Origin: Candidatus Neomarinimicrobiota bacterium
Lineage (GTDB): Bacteria; Fidelibacterota; Marinisomatia; SCGC-AAA003-L08; TS1B11
NCBI GenBank assembly: GCA_022560655.1
Contig: JADFSS010000006.1
Location: forward strand, 1 to 61,519
DNA: 61,519 nt
Reading direction: 5' to 3'
Below, piece after piece: positions 4,823 through 36,071 of the stretch. Position 1 is the stretch's first letter; each line of letters begins with the position of its first letter. Position numbers and translations under genes: made by a program. Below the pieces are notes generated by a model. The model was not told the origin of the DNA, ran no database searches, and worked only from the letters and a program-made list of their open reading frames with translations.

Positions 4823-5236
4823 ATGGGTACTACTTTTTCAATAGGAAAATTGGCGCAAGAGGCGCAGGTGAACATTGACACCATTCGCTTTTACGAGCGC
4901 AGGGGACTACTGCCTGAGCCTGAGCGTCGGGCGTCGGGATACCGTGTTTACAATGCCGATGCGGTGGACAGACTGAGGTTCATTGTCCACGGCAAGGAGC
5001 TGGGCTTCTCACTGGCGGAGATATCCGATCTGCTGACGCTTAAGGTCGATCCTGAAACCAGTTGCGGGGCTGTAAAACTGCGCGCAGATGCGAAGATCTC
5101 CTCGGTACGCGAGAAAATCGAAGCACTCCAAAAGATCGAGCAAGCCCTCACAAAACTGTCCAGTGAGTGCCACGGTGCAGGGCCACGGGGTGACTGCCCC
5201 ATCATCCATGCTCTGGAATTTGTGGGTGAGGCCTAA
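4823..5236 (+). CDS. merR: MerR, Hg(II)-responsive transcriptional regulator
   Basis: 137 residues from ATG 4823, preceded by AGGAGG (4811-4816). The N-terminal winged helix-turn-helix has FSIGKLAQEAQVNIDTIRFYERRGLL, followed by the dimerisation helix. All three mercury ligands of the MerR family are present: one Cys in DPETSCGAVK at the start of the long helix, and two in SSECHGAGPRGDC spaced nine residues apart, as in Tn501 MerR C117/C126. Family knowledge: an apo dimer bends the promoter and Hg(II) binding untwists the long spacer. It heads a unit with merB and the merA-like gene. A second MerR lies at 9228-9638 with the same ligands. Confidence 0.92.
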   Translation: MGTTFSIGKLAQEAQVNIDTIRFYERRGLLPEPERRASGYRVYNADAVDRLRFIVHGKELGFSLAEISDLLTLKVDPETSCGAVKLRADAKISSVREKIEALQKIEQALTKLSSECHGAGPRGDCPIIHALEFVGEA

Positions 5237-5285
5237 AGTTGACGATCAAGATTGCAAGGAACCCAACATAACCGAGGAGAATAGC

Positions 5286-5978
5286 ATGGCTATAAACGAA
5301 CAATGGATAAAAGAATTTTTGGGGACCTTCCCCGATGAATTCATCCAGCTCAATGAAACTGAGCAACGCATCTCAGCGCAGATTTATCGGTTGCTTGCGG
5401 AAACCGGAAAGCCGGTTTCTGTCCAAAGCCTCGCCAAGAGTTTGAACTTGCCTGAAAGCGAGGTGCATCAAGTCCTCGATGACTGGACGGGCTTGTTCTA
5501 TGATGACGAAAACAAGATTGTCGGTTACTGGGGGCTGGCCCTGGGGAAAACGGCGCATCGCTTTGCGGTGAACGGCCACACGCTCTATGCCTGGTGTGCC
5601 TTGGACAGTCTGTTCATCCCCCAGATCATCGGGCGGACCGCGCAGGTGGAGTCGCTTGATCCTGTGAGCAAGGAGGTTGTTCGACTGACCGTAACCCCCG
5701 AGGGGGTGGAGCAGGTTGAACCCTCCGGTGCAGTGACTTCCTTAATGTTCATTTTGCCTGAGATTGACCAGATCCGGTCGGACGTGATCAAGAGCTTCTG
5801 TCACTATCTGCATTTTTTCGCAGCTCCGGAGACCGCTGAGAAATGGGTGGCTCAAAGCCCCAAGAGCTCCGACTTGCTGACGCTATCCATTGAGGACGCT
5901 TTCCGGATTGGGTTCGAGAAAAATCTGCTGCAGTACCGGGATATCCTCGACTCTGAAGCATCGATCGAAGTTGTTTGA
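5286..5978 (+). CDS. merB: MerB, alkylmercury (organomercurial) lyase
   Basis: 230 residues from ATG 5286, with AGGAG seven bases upstream. The catalytic residues are present: WCALD supplies the first active-site Cys and the Asp, and SFCHYLHFF supplies the second Cys (family C96, D99, C159 in R831b MerB). The N-terminal ~80 residues form the winged-helix-like domain (TGKPVSVQSLAKSLNLPESEVHQVLDD). The enzyme cleaves carbon-mercury bonds and passes Hg(II) to mercuric reductase. It lies between merR and the merA-like gene, so this locus should give broad-spectrum resistance including organomercury. Length is near the usual ~212-220, slightly long at the N-terminus. Confidence 0.93.
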   Translation: MAINEQWIKEFLGTFPDEFIQLNETEQRISAQIYRLLAETGKPVSVQSLAKSLNLPESEVHQVLDDWTGLFYDDENKIVGYWGLALGKTAHRFAVNGHTLYAWCALDSLFIPQIIGRTAQVESLDPVSKEVVRLTVTPEGVEQVEPSGAVTSLMFILPEIDQIRSDVIKSFCHYLHFFAAPETAEKWVAQSPKSSDLLTLSIEDAFRIGFEKNLLQYRDILDSEASIEVV

Positions 5979-6042
5979 TGGATCAACAGCTGCCCCCGGG
6001 AATCGGCCAACGAACAAATCGCCCAACCTAAGGAGTACACTC

Positions 6043-6186
6043 ATGGAAACCCAAACTCAACTGAACCCGACTACAGCGACGCACCTGTTCGATTTCAACG
6101 GAGTCGGCAACGCGGAGCTCGGCGAACTTGTCTCATCCGCCGATCTGTATCGGGCGAAGCCGGCCCCGGGTGGCCCGAACGCATGA
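6043..6186 (+). CDS. 47-residue protein of unknown function, coupled to the merA-like gene
   Basis: ATG 6043 follows a good AGGAG site (6031-6035). The product is acidic-to-neutral with no signal peptide, no cysteine and no membrane segment, and includes HLFDFNGVGNAELGELVSSA. Its stop overlaps the start of the merA-like gene (ATGA at 6183-6186). That downstream start has no good ribosome site of its own, so translation of this short frame probably delivers ribosomes to it. It may be a real small protein or mainly a translational-coupling leader; I do not recognise it. Confidence 0.5.
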   Translation: METQTQLNPTTATHLFDFNGVGNAELGELVSSADLYRAKPAPGGPNA

Positions 6187-7559
6187 CGCCGCACTACGAC
6201 CTGGCCGTGATCGGGGCTGGGCAGGGCGGCCTGCCGGCGGCCCATTTGGCAGCTCGGTTAGGTGCCAAGGTGGCCCTCATCGAGATGCGCGAGGTTGGAG
6301 GAACGTGAGTCAACGAGGGGTGCATACCCACCAAGACCTTGTTAAGGTCTGCCGAAGTCATGCATCTGGTCCAGCGCCGCGCGCAGCAGTTCGGCGTTCG
6401 GGGCATCGATCCCGACGCGCTTTCCTTTGACCTGGCCGCCGCCATCCAGCGCAAGGATGCCATCGTTGGCGGAATTATCGACGGCATTTACCGCAATCTG
6501 AAAAAGAATAGCGGCATCACTTTTCTCACCGGCCGGGCAGCCTTTGCCTCGCCCCAGGAAATCCGCGTGGACGAGCAGCTCATCGCGGTTGACAAGACCA
6601 TTCTGGCCGTGGGCGCGCAGGTTACCCAGCCACAAATTCCTGGGCTGGAGGAATCCGGCTACATTACCAATGATGAAGCCTTGCATTTGGATCGGCTGCC
6701 GGCTTCGATGATTATCATCGGCGCCGGCTATGTGGGCGTGGAGTTCGCCCAAATGTATGCTCGCTTCGGCACCCGCGTCACGCTGGTTGGCCGCGCCCCC
6801 CGGGTCATGCCCGGCGAAGAACCGGAGCTCTCCGATCTGCTGGTCGACATCCTGCGCTCAGAGGGCATCGAGGTGCAAACCTCCACCGAGGTGCTCACCG
6901 CCGGGCGCAAGGGAGGACAGCCCTACGTCACCACGCGGAAGGATGCGACCGAGCAGCGCCTGGAAGCCGAGCTGCTCCTGCTGGCCGCCGGCCGCACTGC
7001 GCGTACTGCCGGGCTGGGCCTGGACCAGGCCGGCGTCCACATGGCCGGTAATTTTCTACAGATCGACAACCAATTGCGAACCACGGCCCCCAACATCTGG
7101 TCTCTGGGCGATGCTAACGGCGGCGCCATGTTCACTCACCGCGCCAAGTTTGACGGCCCCATCACGGCCCTCAACGCCGTGCGTGGCCTGGAAAGGACCG
7201 TGGATTACCGCGTCGTGCCCCGCGCCGCCTTTACCGAACCAGCCCTGGCCAGTGTGGGGCTCACCGAGCAGCAGGCTCGGGACGCTGGCTACGACGTCAA
7301 GGTCGGCCGGGAGTTATTTGCCGGCTACGGCCGGGCGAAGGCCCTGGCCGAAACTGAAGGGCTGGTGAAACTGGTCGTTGACGCCGCCACTGATGAGATT
7401 CTCGGCGGCCACATTCTCGGGCCCCACGCCGATCTGCTCATTCACGAGGTGGCCGTGGCCATGCACGACCACGGCGCTATCGAGCGACTCACAAAGACCA
7501 TCCATGTGCACCCCACCTTGAGCGAGGTGGTCAAGGGTGCCGCAAAAGCCGCCCAATGA
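6183..7559 (+). CDS. mercuric-reductase-like flavoprotein with in-frame UGA at the redox cysteine (candidate selenoprotein)
   Basis: 458 residues if UGA at 6306-6308 is read as selenocysteine. The frame is otherwise intact. FAD-binding AVIGAGQGGLPAA is at residues 9-21 and the active site reads GGT-U-VNEGCIPTK at about 39-51, where the family has GGTCxNxGCxPTK. The NAD(P)H fold follows (IIIGAGYVGVEFAQMYARFG, ~180), then SLGDANGG and the C-terminal HVHPTLSEVV with the catalytic His-Glu. The UGA replaces the interchange (attacking) thiol and the charge-transfer Cys remains. There is no N-terminal HMA domain, and the C-terminal Cys pair that true MerA uses to capture Hg(II) is missing (it ends GAAKAAQ), so the substrate is uncertain. 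The gene follows merB directly. Alternative: a nonsense mutation. A hairpin suited to SECIS lies 33 nt downstream. Confidence 0.82.
6334..6350 (+). promoter_or_regulatory. candidate bacterial SECIS hairpin in the merA-like gene
   Basis: AGACCTT-GTT-AAGGTCT forms a perfect 7-bp stem. Its apical loop GTT begins 33 nt after the UGA at 6306-6308, inside the usual 16-37 nt window and starting with G then U. The codons that build it (TTG TTA AGG TCT) are unusual in this GC-rich gene, where CTG and CGC dominate, which suggests selection on the RNA. A smaller hairpin GGGT-GCAT-ACCC (6318-6329) precedes it. Confidence 0.62.
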
Positions 7560-30619: not shown

Positions 30620-32701
30620 CTATTTAAGGAGGACCAGCTTGCGGGTAACGGAAGCGGTCTCGCCCCTCAGCCGGAGCAGGTAAACGCCTGAGTTCAGGGT
30701 CACAGCGTCGCGGCCCTCAGCACGCCAACGGAACTGGTGGGCGCCGGGACCGAGCCAACCGGCGTAGATTTCCTCAAGCCAGCGACCGTTAAGGTCGTAG
30801 ACGGCCAGTTCCACCGCCTGGCCGTAGGGGTTGTCCACCCGGATGGTGACGGTGGCGTTGAAGGGATTGGGATAGACGCTGGCCAGCGAGAACGTGGCCG
30901 GTACGGCCTCCGGGCTGTCGTTTACGCCGGTGGGGACATTGCCCAGGAGCGACTCAATCACTCGGATCATGGTGCCGGGATCGTATTCGGTGTCGGCAAA
31001 GTGAATCATTTGGTCCTTAATAATATAATCCCGGGGATAGGGTGACTGGCCGCCGGGGATATTGTAGGCGAAGTAGGTGTTATTGCCGTCCTGCAGCACG
31101 GGGAAGGTAATGCCCTGGTCGCGGATAAAGTTTTGCAGGATCGTCGTCGATTGATTGGAGACGCCCAAGACCCAGAGTCCTTGGTCGTGATACTCCTGCC
31201 AAATACTGATCTCGAGGTCCGAAAACTCCGGAGCGCAGACCGGTCACCAGCTGGCGAAGAAGGCCAGCACCACCACCCGGCTGCGGAACAGGCTAAGGGT
31301 GATATCGCCGAAGCCGTTCACCGAGGGGAGGGTGAAATCGGGGGCCATCTGACCTACCTCGAGCCCCCAAGTGGAGTTGCCGTCCAGCTTGATACTGAGC
31401 TCAGGCTCGCCCGGGTCATCGGTAAACAGGGTTAAGAGCCCCTGACCGTTCTCGCTCGTGGCGCAGTAGGTGACGCTGCCCGCGCGGGCTTCGCCGGGCG
31501 GGATGGTGCCCACCGAAAGGGAGACGTCAAAATCGGCATGATTGACCTCCACACCGACCAGGTTGAGGGTCTGACCACCGTTGTTCCAGATGGTCAGGGG
31601 TCGTTCCAGGCAGTTACCCGTGTCGACATGCGGAAAGTCCAGGTCGCGGGTAGAGACATCCAGGTCCGGACCGCTGACCGCGCCAAATCGGAAGGTGCGA
31701 AAAAAGCGCCACTCGGCCGAGTAGATGATATGGCCCACCATGTTGATGGCCATCACCCGTCCACCGGTGTCCTTGTAGCCCACCAGCTCCAGAGACGGGG
31801 AGGCATTCCAGGCCAGCACCTCCACGTCATCCCAGTCGGACACGGCCACCAGGCTGTCGCTGACGGCTACGCGGGAGGCGTAGCCGCTGGTGTTGTAGTT
31901 GGCAACCAGGACCGGGTTGGCCGGGTCGGAGACGTCGATCATGTCCACGCCGCTGGCCCCCACCGCGACGAAGACGAAGTTCCCCGCCGGGGCCACGTCC
32001 TTGGCGGTCCCGGAAGTGGCCACGATCCCCACCACCTGGGCCGCAGAGGGACTGGATATGTCGATGATTTTCAGCCCGCCAGCACCATCGGCAACAAAGA
32101 GCAACTGGCCATCGGCGGAGGCGGCCAGTGCCCAGGCATAGGTGGTGGGCACCAGCCCGGCAAACTGGAGCGCCTGCGGGTTGGCGATGTCGATGATTTC
32201 CACGCCCTCAGTGTGTACCGCGGCGTAGAGAAACGAACCGCTGGAGACGGCATGCTCATACGATCTGCCGGTAGACCCGTAATCGGCCAGCTGGCTGGGA
32301 TTCCTGGGGGAGGCGACATTGAGCACCTTGATGCCGCAGTAGCGTCCGCTGCCGTAAAGCAAGTTGCCGACGGAGTGCCAGGCATAGATTCGGCCGTATT
32401 CACACCCAGAGGCGAAATACTCTCCGATGAATTGTGGCGCGGCGGGGTCTGAGATATCAATAATGTTCAGGCCGCCCAGCCCGGCGGGGATGTAGGCGAA
32501 GTCCCCCGCAATCTCCACGTCCAGCAGTTCGAAGTTGAGGGGCTTGAAAGTGGCCAGCCGGGTGAGGTTGAGTGCGGTGGCCGGCAAAGGAATAAGCCCC
32601 AGGAGCGCCACGGCGAGGCCGATCAGACGATGGCGGGGGAGGGCCGTCACCACGGAACCCCTGGAGCTCGAAATATTCTGCTCAACATGCGCTGTGATCA
32701 T
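30620..32701 (-). CDS. secreted LVIVD-repeat plus TlpA-thioredoxin plus sorting-domain protein with in-frame UGA (candidate selenoprotein)
   Basis: About 693 residues if UGA (31244-31246, minus) is selenocysteine. The start at ATG 32701 overlaps the stop of the upstream gene (ATGA); GTG at 32653 is an alternative that gives a shorter signal peptide (PRHRLIGLAVALLGLIPLPATA). Domains in order: LVIVD beta-propeller repeats (GLNIIDISDPAAPQFIG, GVEIIDIANPQALQFAG, GVDMIDVSDPANPVLVA), an immunoglobulin-like segment (LDVSTRDLDFPHVDTGNC), a TlpA-like domain (APDFTLPSVNGFGDITLSLF ... VLAFFASW-U-PVCAPEF ... GVSNQSTTI ... ITFPVLQDG), and a type IX-like C-terminal sorting domain (VYPNPFNATVTI ... KLVLLK). 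The UGA takes the place of the first Cys of CxxC. Last gene of a secreted-redox operon. Confidence 0.8.
31218..31232 (-). promoter_or_regulatory. candidate SECIS hairpin in the LVIVD-thioredoxin gene
   Basis: On the minus strand TCCG-GAGTTTT-CGGA forms a short stem whose loop begins 16 nt after the UGA with a G. The stem is only 4 bp before a mismatch, so this is the weakest of the three candidates. A competing pairing GGTCTG/CGGACC with a 14-nt loop starting at +9 is also possible. Confidence 0.35.
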
Positions 32702-33531
32702 TTCAGCAGTACAATTTTCTGCGACCGGACAACTGCGCCGGCCTGCAGGCGGAGAATGTATACGCCCGAGTCCCTGTCCCGGGCATCCCACACCACTTCG
32801 TGTCGCCCAGCCGACCGGCGCCCGGCATTACCCAGTGAAGCCACCTGCCTGCCGCCCAGGTCGAACACATCCAGCCGTACCGGGGAGGGCTCAGTGAGTG
32901 TGTAGGCAATGGTGACGGTGGGGTTAAATGGATTGGGGTAGGCAGGGTGCAGCGCGACCCGGTTGGGCAGGTTTGGGGCGGCGGCGACGCCATGGGCCGG
33001 GGTGCCGAGAACGGCGATGTTCCCCAGCAGCATGGCAATGGTGTCGGTGATGGCCTGCTCGTTCCAGCCGAAGGCGGCGTAGCGGATGGTCATGGTGTGG
33101 TCAATGATGACGTGGAAGGGGATATAGGTAACGCTGAAATCGTTGATCAACGCCATGTTGGAGCCGTCCAGCAGTGGGTAGGTCAGGCCGAATGTCTGGG
33201 CCCAGTCCGCGCAGCTGTAGGGATAGTCCCAGTCGAAGCCCACCCCCAGCGCGATGAGCCCGTGTTCCTTGAATGCCTGATGGACAGTTTCGGTAAGCGG
33301 AGCCTCCGCCTGACAGACCGTTCACCAGGAGGCGAAGAAATTGAGCCAGATGACGTGGTAGTTACCACCGTTTTGCGCGCCGTTGTAGTCGTTGAGGGTG
33401 AAGCTGCCGCTGTCGTTGGCGCAGATGTTGGTGGTGAAGTCGAGCACCACGTCGCCGACGGCATAGGGCTGCGCTGCGAGCAGCCCTGCCAACAGCAGCG
33501 GGATCAGCAGGTGGGTGGGTCTGGCCGCCAT
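32698..33531 (-). CDS. secreted TlpA/thioredoxin-like protein with sorting domain and in-frame UGA (candidate selenoprotein)
   Basis: About 277 residues if UGA (33322-33324, minus) is selenocysteine. The signal peptide is MAARPTHLLIPLLLAGLLAA; the mature part is AVGDVVLDFTTNICANDSGSFTLNDY, then HVIWLNFFASW-U-TVCQAEAPL, where the family has W-C-x-x-C. The rest of the thioredoxin fold follows (ALGVGFDWDYPYSCADWAQ, LTYPLLDG, SVTYIPFHVIID with the cis-Pro site, RYAAFGWNEQ). It ends with a type IX-like sorting domain (AYPNPFNPTVTI ... GVYILRLQAG ... IVLLK). Its frame is clean on both sides of the UGA. Its stop overlaps the next gene's ATG. Its paralogue at 30620-32701 has the same codon at the same place. 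Confidence 0.82.
33295..33311 (-). promoter_or_regulatory. candidate SECIS hairpin in the TlpA-like gene
   Basis: On the minus strand AGGCGGA-GGC-TCCGCTT gives a 7-bp stem (one G-U), with its loop starting 18 nt after the UGA with G. Spacing, stem length and loop G all fit the bacterial SECIS rules. Confidence 0.55.
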
Positions 33532-33612
33532 CGTTTCAGAATCTAATCCGGGCCCTGCCGGCTAACTGTCTGTCAGCAGCCAAATGCCCGCAATCGTGCG
33601 GCTTCCTGGTGC

Positions 33613-35526
33613 TCAGAAAATGCCCCGGAAGGTCAGCTTCAAGGCATCGGCAATGCCGGGCACGAACACGCACACGCCGCTGTCGCACTTCAGTCCGCCC
33701 TGTAGCGAGCCGTAGAACACCGACAGGGATGTGGACGGCGTCAGATAGCCGGTGAACTCCAGGCCGAACCACTTGTTACGCAGGTCGACACCCAGCGAGC
33801 GGATCACGGCCTCCAGCCAACTGTCTTCATCGGGTAGCACATTCTCGGACCGGCCGGTCTTGAGGCGGGAGGCGTAATCATAGACGATGCCCAGGGTAAA
33901 CCGGGACGGCCTGCCGATGCTCAGCGCCAGGTAGCGATAATAAAAACTTTGGTCCAGGAGTCCGTCGGAAGTCACACTGTCGATAAGACCCGTAGAGGAC
34001 GCGCGAAAGGCAATCCGGTTTTTAAACCCTAGCTGCTCCCACTGGTGCTCCCAGTCCAGCGTCAGGCCCCAGCCGCCCGCCCCTGGAAGGCTCAGGCTGG
34101 CCTGCAGCGGCAGTGTAATGAGCTTGCGCTGCTCCCAATTGAGGATCTCCTTGGCATGGCCGGCCAGCTCGGAGTTCTCCACCACCGTCTCGGCATAGCC
34201 CAGTACCTCGCCGGCTACTGATACCATCGCTTTTAAGTCCAGGTTGAGGGGGCTGTAATGGTAATTCAGCTCCCCGTAGAGCTCGCTGAAGGGATAGTAC
34301 CTTTCGTGGCGGGAGAACCAAAACATGTTGGACGCGTCGGTGCGCTGCCAGCTAAAACCGTCAGGCCGAATCGCCTTGCTGAAGCCGGTGTGCCGACTGC
34401 TGCGGGCGTAGTTGGCGATGAGGAACAGGTCATCGCCGAGGGCCAGATGCCCCTCCAGCTGGACCCCCACCTCATCCTCGAAATCCATCACGTGGGGCGT
34501 GCGGGCCAACAGTGTGGCGGAGTGCTCGCGGAACACCGAGGGCGGGTTTTGCACGGGTGTGCGGCGCTGCAGCCTGAAGGGCAGGTGCGAGCGCACGTCG
34601 GGCTCGCTGGCGTCGAACAGGTAGTTCTTGTACTCCAGGGTCAGTCCCCAGCGACCCGGATAGAGCGACAGGCTGCCGTAACCGCCCCAACCGCGCGACT
34701 GCCGTTCGTAGTGGACCCAGCGGTTCAGGGCCTGGGAAAACAGGCTGTCGACATCGGCGATGCTGTGGACACGGACGGTGAGCTCTGCGGAAGCATTGAA
34801 GACCGAGCCGACCCATTCGGCGAACAAGCCCGGCATGCTGGAGGCTGTGCGAATTTTGGCTTCGTCCACCAGCAGATACTCGCCGGTGCTGAAATCCTGC
34901 AGCTTGCTGAACCAGGGGTTCATCGCCTGCACGCCGACCCAATAACCGCCCAGTTCCAGGCCACCGGCGAGGTCATGGACCACGACCTGCAGCGCAGTGA
35001 CAGAGGCATCATCCGTGAAGTCGCGGATGCGGGCGTCGACGCCGGGGCCCGGTAGCAGGTGCCTCCCGCTGGAGACCGTGCCGGCGAGAAATGCGGCGCT
35101 CACCCGGCCCGCAGGCCTGGCGGTGAGCCAGATCCCCCGCAGCGACGAGTCCCAGTCGATGGCCTGGTTTTCCCACATGTTCAGCGCCAGACCGCGCCCG
35201 AACTGACCGTACAGGTCTCCGGCGCTTACCGCTAGCCGCCGTCCCTCCCACCAGAGGCGCAGCTTGCGCAGTCCGTTGTGGTGCGGGCCGATCTGCGGGG
35301 GGGAGCTGAATTCCAGGTTGGCCCAGAGGGTAAGGGGGCCGAAGCCCGCCGTGAGATCGAGCAGGTGTTCGCTGTAGACATACGGGCTGGGGAGCGCGTC
35401 GGTGATCTCCGTGCCCGGCAGGGACCCGCTGCCCAGCTGGGCGGTGATGCTGCCGGCCACGGACGTTTGCTGCCCGGCCGCGGCCGTAACCAGAACCAAC
35501 CCCAACAAGACCGCTCTGGCGAACAT
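33613..35526 (-). CDS. DUF6029-like outer-membrane protein
   Basis: 637 residues from ATG 35526. Signal peptide (MFARAVLLGLVLVTAAAGQQ), then a long beta-rich chain with paired amphipathic strands (LDLTAGFGPLTLWANLEFSS, GWGGYGSLSLYPGRWGLTLEYKNYLF) ending in LKLTFRGIF with a terminal aromatic. GDLYGQFGRGLALNMWENQAIDWDSSLRGIWL is characteristic of the DUF6029 family known from Bacteroidota-type outer membranes. It lies 5 nt after the TlpA gene and upstream of the two UGA-containing thioredoxin genes, so all four are likely one transcript. Presumably the outer-membrane element of this secreted redox system. Confidence 0.75.
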   Translation of the reverse strand: MFARAVLLGLVLVTAAAGQQTSVAGSITAQLGSGSLPGTEITDALPSPYVYSEHLLDLTAGFGPLTLWANLEFSSPPQIGPHHNGLRKLRLWWEGRRLAVSAGDLYGQFGRGLALNMWENQAIDWDSSLRGIWLTARPAGRVSAAFLAGTVSSGRHLLPGPGVDARIRDFTDDASVTALQVVVHDLAGGLELGGYWVGVQAMNPWFSKLQDFSTGEYLLVDEAKIRTASSMPGLFAEWVGSVFNASAELTVRVHSIADVDSLFSQALNRWVHYERQSRGWGGYGSLSLYPGRWGLTLEYKNYLFDASEPDVRSHLPFRLQRRTPVQNPPSVFREHSATLLARTPHVMDFEDEVGVQLEGHLALGDDLFLIANYARSSRHTGFSKAIRPDGFSWQRTDASNMFWFSRHERYYPFSELYGELNYHYSPLNLDLKAMVSVAGEVLGYAETVVENSELAGHAKEILNWEQRKLITLPLQASLSLPGAGGWGLTLDWEHQWEQLGFKNRIAFRASSTGLIDSVTSDGLLDQSFYYRYLALSIGRPSRFTLGIVYDYASRLKTGRSENVLPDEDSWLEAVIRSLGVDLRNKWFGLEFTGYLTPSTSLSVFYGSLQGGLKCDSGVCVFVPGIADALKLTFRGIF

Positions 35527-35531
35527 GGAGG

Positions 35532-36071
35532 TCAGGGACTGGGGGAGCTGTTATCGCGGGGCAGGTCTTGGGGCACGGCCGGGGAGCGGGCCGGATCGAG
35601 CAGGGCTGTGATCTGTCGTTCGAGGGCTTGCTCATCGCCGGGCACGTAGCCGGTGTGGCGGTAGATGATCTGTCCCGACCGATCCACGAGCAGCGTGTAG
35701 GGCAAGACGTTGCCGCTGAGCCTGCGGAAGGTGTCGTTGCTAGGGTCCAGGGCGGTCTGGAAGCCGTAGCCGCGGGACTTCAGATAGCTGCGCACCTTGG
35801 ATCGGCTGCGCTCGGTGTCCAGGTTGATGGTGAGCACCTGCAGCCCCCGGTCCCCATAGCTGGACTGAAAGGCGTCCAGGTGGCGCATGGCCTTCAGGCA
35901 GGGCGCGCACCAGAGGGCCCAAAAGTCGATGAGGAGCGGGCCGTCCGCATGGAGCTCCCGGAGAGTCGCCTTGCGGCCATCAAGCAACCGCACGGTGGTT
36001 TGGGGCAGCCGCTTCGTTTGCGACCCCAGTAGAGCTGCCGCCATCAGCACCGCGAATAGCATGCGTTTCAT
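35532..36071 (-). CDS. TlpA/ResA-like thioredoxin (all-cysteine)
   Basis: 179 residues from ATG 36071; the upstream in-frame extension to 36146 has no homology. A short signal sequence (MLFAVLMAAALLGSQ) is followed by a thioredoxin fold: LPQTTVRLLDGRKATLREL, LLIDFWALWCAPCLKAMRHL with the CxxC site, VLTINLDTERSRSKVRSYL, and NVLPYTLLVDRSGQII with the cis-Pro. It uses TGC at both cysteines, unlike the two UGA paralogues downstream in the same operon. Exported disulfide oxidoreductase, role in envelope disulfide exchange inferred. First gene of the 36071-30620 cluster. Confidence 0.85.
   Translation of the reverse strand: MKRMLFAVLMAAALLGSQTKRLPQTTVRLLDGRKATLRELHADGPLLIDFWALWCAPCLKAMRHLDAFQSSYGDRGLQVLTINLDTERSRSKVRSYLKSRGYGFQTALDPSNDTFRRLSGNVLPYTLLVDRSGQIIYRHTGYVPGDEQALERQITALLDPARSPAVPQDLPRDNSSPSP

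Follow-up and report, generated by a model that had tools for sequence, protein, structure and literature searches.

A four-gene operon with two in-frame UGA codons

The subject of this report is a 61,519-nt stretch of DNA, hereafter the window, comprising positions 1 to 61,519 of contig JADFSS010000006.1 (forward strand; assembly GCA_022560655.1) from a Candidatus Neomarinimicrobiota bacterium. Between positions 30,620 and 36,071 the minus strand carries four genes encoding, from 5' to 3', an all-cysteine (Cys) TlpA-like thioredoxin, a DUF6029 outer-membrane beta-barrel, and two TlpA-like proteins that end in a sorting tail of the type IX secretion system (T9SS) and have an in-frame UGA, almost certainly read as selenocysteine (Sec), at the redox position. 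An earlier note, made from the sequence alone, had described this layout, and Pfam and NCBIfam profiles of the window proteins recover it with the following features (SECIS, Sec insertion sequence):

35532..36071, minus strand: all-Cys thioredoxin of the TlpA/ResA type with WCAPC, predicted to be periplasmic; Redoxin PF08534, 60 bits, also AhpC-TSA; stop TGA
33613..35526, minus strand: DUF6029 outer-membrane beta-barrel; PF19494, 52.9 bits (cut-off 27), E 3e-14; stop TGA
33670..33687, minus strand: codons of CDSGVC (C614-C619), the CxxGxC of the barrel and its only two cysteines, from alignment; predicted last extracellular loop
32698..33531, minus strand: third gene, TlpA-like UxxC selenoprotein (Sec70) with T9SS tail; AhpC-TSA 55 bits, Por_Secre_tail 31 bits; stop TGA
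33322..33324, minus strand: UGA codon of the third gene (Sec70), in ASW-U-TVC; from translation and TGA at the equivalent codon of homologous domains
33295..33311, minus strand: SECIS-like hairpin of the third gene, AGGCGGA-GGC-TCCGCTT; loop GGC, 17 nt after the UGA
32710..32940, minus strand: T9SS type A sorting domain of the third gene; TIGR04183, 38.7 bits (cut-off 23)
30620..32701, minus strand: fourth gene, LVIVD repeats, ASH-like Ig domain, TlpA-like selenoprotein domain (Sec486) and T9SS tail; LVIVD 110 bits, AhpC-TSA 72 bits, Por_Secre_tail 34 bits; stop TAG
31244..31246, minus strand: UGA codon of the fourth gene (Sec486), in ASW-U-PVC; from translation
31218..31232, minus strand: SECIS-like hairpin of the fourth gene, TCCGGA-GTT-TTCGGA; loop GTT, 17 nt after the UGA
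30632..30877, minus strand: T9SS type A sorting domain of the fourth gene; TIGR04183, 42.2 bits (cut-off 23)

The TlpA and DUF6029 genes are separated by 5 nt, DUF6029 and the third gene by 81 nt, and the third and fourth genes overlap at ATGA. A scan for promoters and terminators gave results close to chance level. The window proteins score above the cut-offs of fold-level Pfam families and below those of the named ResA, DsbE and TlpA subfamilies in NCBIfam (best 43-60 bits, with a ResA cut-off of 170).

Evidence that UGA encodes selenocysteine

When searched with a profile of the third-gene domain, 142 of 245 genomes from the phylum proved to contain relatives. In 108 nonredundant domains that we read codon by codon, the redox position was TGA in 65, TGT or TGC in 36 and a serine (Ser) codon in seven, and it was never TAA or TAG.

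Both window genes have a hairpin that lies within the interval described for a bacterial SECIS element (16-37 nt after the UGA) and carries a G early in its loop, and a three-base, G-containing loop, mostly at +17 nt, is the usual form among the UGA genes. Counting three-base loops only, with contiguous pairs and a stem of at least 5, we found the hairpin in 47 of the 65 UGA genes compared to 2 of 19 exported-type Cys genes and none of seven Ser genes. Synonymous recoding of each UGA gene left a mean of 7.9 with a hairpin, and a maximum of 16 in 1000 rounds. In an alignment of 31 sequences, picked from genes whose hairpin lies at +17 and therefore a measure of covariation within them and not of hairpin frequency, the seven pairs were standard in 88.9% of cases versus 72.1% after shuffling. 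Both sides had changed in 40 cells versus 13.3 in shuffled alignments, a signal that was destroyed by shifting the partner by one base. The Omp28-like genes described below have a hairpin of their own at +19 (CGCGA-GTT-TCGCG). Taken singly, the hairpins do not have significant fold energies, and the case rests on the comparative evidence.

The earlier note had asked whether Sec machinery is encoded in the genome, and the answer is yes: we found a tRNA-Sec with anticodon TCA, SelB (343 bits) with a SelA open reading frame (ORF) directly 5' of it that was recognized by reading the ORF and not scored with a model, and SelD (368 bits; L168, G000:C7:32972-33940), which carries one UGA of its own in the active site GAGUACK, a known arrangement for SelD. 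Elsewhere in the genome, the peroxidatic residue of a PrxQ-type peroxiredoxin (L096, G000:C5:36801-37187) is encoded by UGA (TPGU). Among the 64 genomes listed with UGA forms, SelB was found at a strict threshold in 54, the remaining ten being mostly incomplete metagenome-assembled genomes (MAGs).

UGA is at the same time the commonest ordinary stop, terminating 27 of 48 long ORFs in the window, three of the operon genes among them, in a count that also takes in ORFs that stop at Sec codons. In-frame UGAs of the genome were surveyed by family (PF00578 and T9SS tails), not exhaustively; UGA occurs in three of 12 members of PF00578, each time at a redox or peroxidatic position, and the 41 T9SS tail matches are all free of in-frame stops. 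The frequent use of UGA as a terminator and the uninterrupted tails indicate that UGA is not generally recoded, and the scatter of UGAs over random sites that the earlier note had named as a sign of recoding or poor assembly did not appear in either family.

Given the Sec machinery, the covarying SECIS-like hairpins and conservation throughout the phylum, we conclude that the operon UGAs are almost certainly Sec codons and that the module is real, as the earlier note held in preferring Sec to chance nonsense. The probability that they represent nonsense mutations, assembly errors or general recoding is practically negligible. The genome is a draft of 128 contigs, which is in keeping with such errors, but UGA recurs at one codon in homologue after homologue to the exclusion of UAA and UAG, frame and tail are intact downstream, the hairpins covary, and recoding is at odds with the normal use of UGA as a stop. 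As far as sequence can decide, this explanation is already refuted.

A separate gene set at 4823-7559 on the plus strand of the window consists of merR, a merB-like gene (189 bits, below the cut-off of 193) and an FAD disulfide reductase of the dihydrolipoyl dehydrogenase/MerA type. The third UGA that the earlier note had listed is indeed present in this reductase (6306-6308, in GGT-U-VNEGC), which is probably a Sec enzyme in a mercury-type gene set.

Conservation of gene order and replacement of the redox residue

When the fetched loci were annotated with profiles, 35 of them, counting that of the window, had at least one exported thioredoxin-like gene after DUF6029, and the same TlpA subfamily lay directly upstream of DUF6029 in 30 of these. 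Of the remaining five, four begin near a contig edge and one (L126) has TlpA downstream. At least one exported gene carries Sec in 31 of the 35 loci. Genome G003 (L050) has all four genes in exactly the same order as the window, again with both UGAs, and order-level relatives (L107-L118) have two or three exported thioredoxin-like genes in a row. Conservation of the order TlpA, DUF6029, exported thioredoxin-like gene(s), a check that the earlier note had proposed, confirms on comparative grounds that the operon is not confined to the window but is phylum-wide. In four loci (L054, L056, L062, L063) a recurring gene 3' of the operon encodes a signal, a long acidic stretch rich in Asp, Glu and Tyr, and a beta-rich domain.

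The upstream periplasmic TlpA type accounts for 17 of the 36 TGT/TGC domains, and it has Cys in every homologue read (17 nonredundant). In a tree of 90 domains we counted nine changes among Sec, Cys and Ser, of which at least four are forced by well-supported branches for Sec, indicating that the three residues have replaced one another repeatedly. The generalization of the earlier note that the periplasmic enzyme uses Cys and the exported ones use Sec is correct for TlpA and for most loci, and fails for some exported proteins that have Cys and for one clade outside the operon that has Ser; Sec in the exported proteins thus appears to be a tendency and not obligatory. Recent tandem duplication was considered as the source of the two Sec thioredoxins and rejected, as they fall into separate clades, and the branch of the fourth-gene type is long and has full support.

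Two further arrangements were seen among the relatives. A third-gene relative in G090 (L078 / L120) has two consecutive UGAs at the redox site (ATW-U-U-PC). In six loci outside the barrel operon (L127, L128, L129, L133, L139, L142), an LVIVD-UPVC selenoprotein of the fourth-gene type adjoins a Cys relative of the third gene, so that the gene pair is retained with Sec in only one member.

The barrel cysteine pair, the export route and the reducing supply

The C-terminal region of DUF6029 reads YGSxxGGxxCxxGxC ahead of the last strand, and the two cysteines are the only ones in many homologues. All of 20 sequences from two phyla, with identities to the window barrel down to 16%, have C614, G617 and C619; named relatives at 20-55% identity come from Candidatus Neomarinimicrobiota/Marinimicrobia MAGs. 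A plasmid search with DUF6029 gave no match, and one with the fourth gene returned generic LVIVD or TlpA matches only. An AlphaFold2 (AF2) model of the DUF6029 protein is a barrel (predicted local distance difference test, pLDDT, 81; predicted template modeling score, pTM, 0.81) that places CxxGxC in a hairpin between the penultimate (599-608) and last (625-636) strands. Because the C-terminus of known outer-membrane barrels is periplasmic, this hairpin would be extracellular, which suggests a thiol-disulfide pathway that may reach the cell surface. A fold search of the model against the PDB returned generic outer-membrane barrels only (TM about 0.4) and was not used for function, and an AF2 model of the third-gene protein from a 7-row alignment (pLDDT 49) was discarded.

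The T9SS components searched for, SprA (691 bits with neighbours) and PorV (246 bits), are both present over cut-off, and 39 of the 41 sorting-tail matches in the genome also exceed the cut-off. We infer that the type IX system carries the third and fourth proteins through the outer membrane, and they probably function as thiol-disulfide oxidoreductases on the cell surface or beyond it. The inner-membrane protein DsbD is present in the genome and VKOR was looked for there and not found, indicating that the envelope has a reducing supply.

An all-cysteine counterpart in Bacteroidales

A scan of contigs for DUF6029 yielded seven contigs from Bacteroidales (L161-L167). The order TlpA (WCKPC), DUF6029, Omp28 (PF11551, up to 5e-30) is readable in most of them, and the Omp28 protein contains the motif EEYTGxxCxNCP and begins like a lipoprotein. 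The Bacteroidales cluster therefore resembles that of the window in gene order, TlpA subfamily, barrel CxxGxC and a thioredoxin-like third gene with CxxC, and differs in being all Cys, with a lipoprotein-like Omp28 protein lacking Sec as the third gene. Some Neomarinimicrobiota have an Omp28-like third gene as well, in which Sec replaces the first Cys (EEFTGxxUPYCPSA) and which has a T9SS tail in several cases. From these comparisons the module appears to be common to the two groups.

One such third gene (L063) matches NF045500, the "Omp28-related selenoprotein" or GOS_C, at 414 bits (cut-off 200). GOS_C was described in 2008 as a thioredoxin-fold orphan with 74 Sec sequences (PMC2398784), and the accessible part of that description mentions no operon, barrel partner or T9SS tail. 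It shares with the window proteins a thioredoxin-like fold, UxxC and, in related genomes, a place as third gene of the module; the window third and fourth proteins differ from it in being of the TlpA/AhpC-TSA type, not the Omp28 type, and neither matches NF045500 at E <= 0.1. Exported Sec proteins of this kind are therefore already partly known, through GOS_C as the third gene in some relatives.

Discussion

We favor the interpretation that the operon is the Sec version of a conserved envelope module, made up of TlpA, a DUF6029 barrel and an exported thioredoxin-like protein, with a thiol-disulfide function at the surface, and consider the chances that this is correct to be about even. DsbD would keep the periplasmic all-Cys TlpA reduced, and TlpA would serve the periplasmic side. 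The surface thioredoxins would exchange thiols and disulfides outside, with the CxxGxC in the last loop of the barrel acting as dock, intermediate or substrate. Selenols react faster than thiols and recover more easily from over-oxidation, which is probably why Sec takes the place of Cys in proteins that face the environment. The surface redox relay that the earlier note proposed is a hypothesis that gains weight from the T9SS genes SprA and PorV, the inner-membrane DsbD and the invariant barrel CxxGxC. Its most specific form, a dedicated relay across the outer membrane from DsbD through the Cys TlpA and the DUF6029 CxxGxC to exported Sec thioredoxins that serve as an extracellular selenium-based reductase, is rather doubtful.

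Several points weigh against this interpretation. A direct relay would lack one step, as a surface loop is out of reach of TlpA. Exported genes are Cys only in four loci (L048, L057, L060, L135), and family f7 has its thioredoxin gene elsewhere in the genome, apart from the barrel. The sorting-tailed Ser clade outside the operon (L131, L132, L134, L136, L137, L138, L141), with TSRxCQLEA and no hairpin, appears to be a loss of the redox residue with a single origin. The AF2 model is of moderate confidence around CxxGxC (block mean 66-82), and it is barrel convention that puts this motif on the outer side. A single paper on DUF6029 was found, and it reports HHpred similarity between this family and Wzi-like polysaccharide-export barrels (PMC9603273). 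The case as a whole is made by sequence and model.

It is also somewhat unlikely, yet conceivable, that the surface Sec oxidoreductases serve folding, forming or isomerizing disulfides of type IX cargo and DUF6029 with TlpA acting separately on periplasmic thiols and no relay. The 41 sorting tails represent much surface cargo and the single invariant Cys pair of the barrel could be a structural disulfide, but Sec as the nucleophile is typically associated with reductive or peroxidatic chemistry and less with the formation of disulfides, and DsbD was found where VKOR was not. Stand-alone detoxifiers at the surface, which reduce peroxides, electrophiles or metals and metalloids and to which the barrel and TlpA are loosely linked, for example as transporter or reductant supply, would fit with the additional Sec peroxiredoxin in the genome and the mercury-type gene set with its UGA reductase in the same window. 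A loose link would not need the order and the third-gene type to stay with DUF6029 across 35 loci and two phyla, and we regard this explanation as distinctly unlikely. Finally, the Wzi-like similarity and the Ser forms of one related clade are compatible with a polysaccharide-export or porin barrel accompanied by structural surface proteins whose redox site is of little import. This is very unlikely given that costly Sec and its hairpin are retained in most loci, that the Ser clade sits outside the operon, and that the barrel Cys pair is kept across phyla.

The envelope module has partial precedents. TlpA/ResA/DsbE oxidoreductases (cd02966, PF08534) have the same fold and motif, and Sec forms (UxxC/UGC) are catalogued (PMC13188914), whereas the window proteins have a T9SS tail, in some cases LVIVD repeats, and a conserved barrel operon. 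A 2026 catalogue of prokaryotic selenoproteins covers GOS_C, UxxC selenoproteins of generic TlpA-like and redoxin types, and a number of selenoprotein operons (PMC13188914), and its accessible part contains neither T9SS-tailed TlpA-type selenoproteins nor a TlpA-DUF6029 operon. The multi-selenoprotein operons grd, prd, frh-hdr, SAO and Tso likewise place several Sec genes of one pathway side by side, but encode other proteins, and none in that part of the catalogue is an exported T9SS module (PMC13188914). Literature searches on Omp28 with TlpA, and on selenoproteins with T9SS or Marinimicrobia/Neomarinimicrobiota, gave nothing on the module, nor was a paper found that treats the Bacteroidales TlpA-DUF6029-Omp28 cluster as a unit; both are weak evidence, as most subscription papers lay outside the search.

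Bacterial selenoproteins that cross the outer membrane are scarcely documented. The module supplies a genetic context for GOS_C, an orphan since 2008, and for DUF6029 and Omp28, two families of unknown role, and predicts that the outer face of the barrel bears a redox-active Cys pair, one that does not vary between two phyla. The all-Cys version in Bacteroidales makes the role of the module testable in laboratory strains. An outer-membrane relay, if true, would be one explanation for GOS_C, DUF6029 and Omp28 together, and the comparative evidence points to a thiol-handling system, as yet undescribed, that may operate on the outside of the cell.

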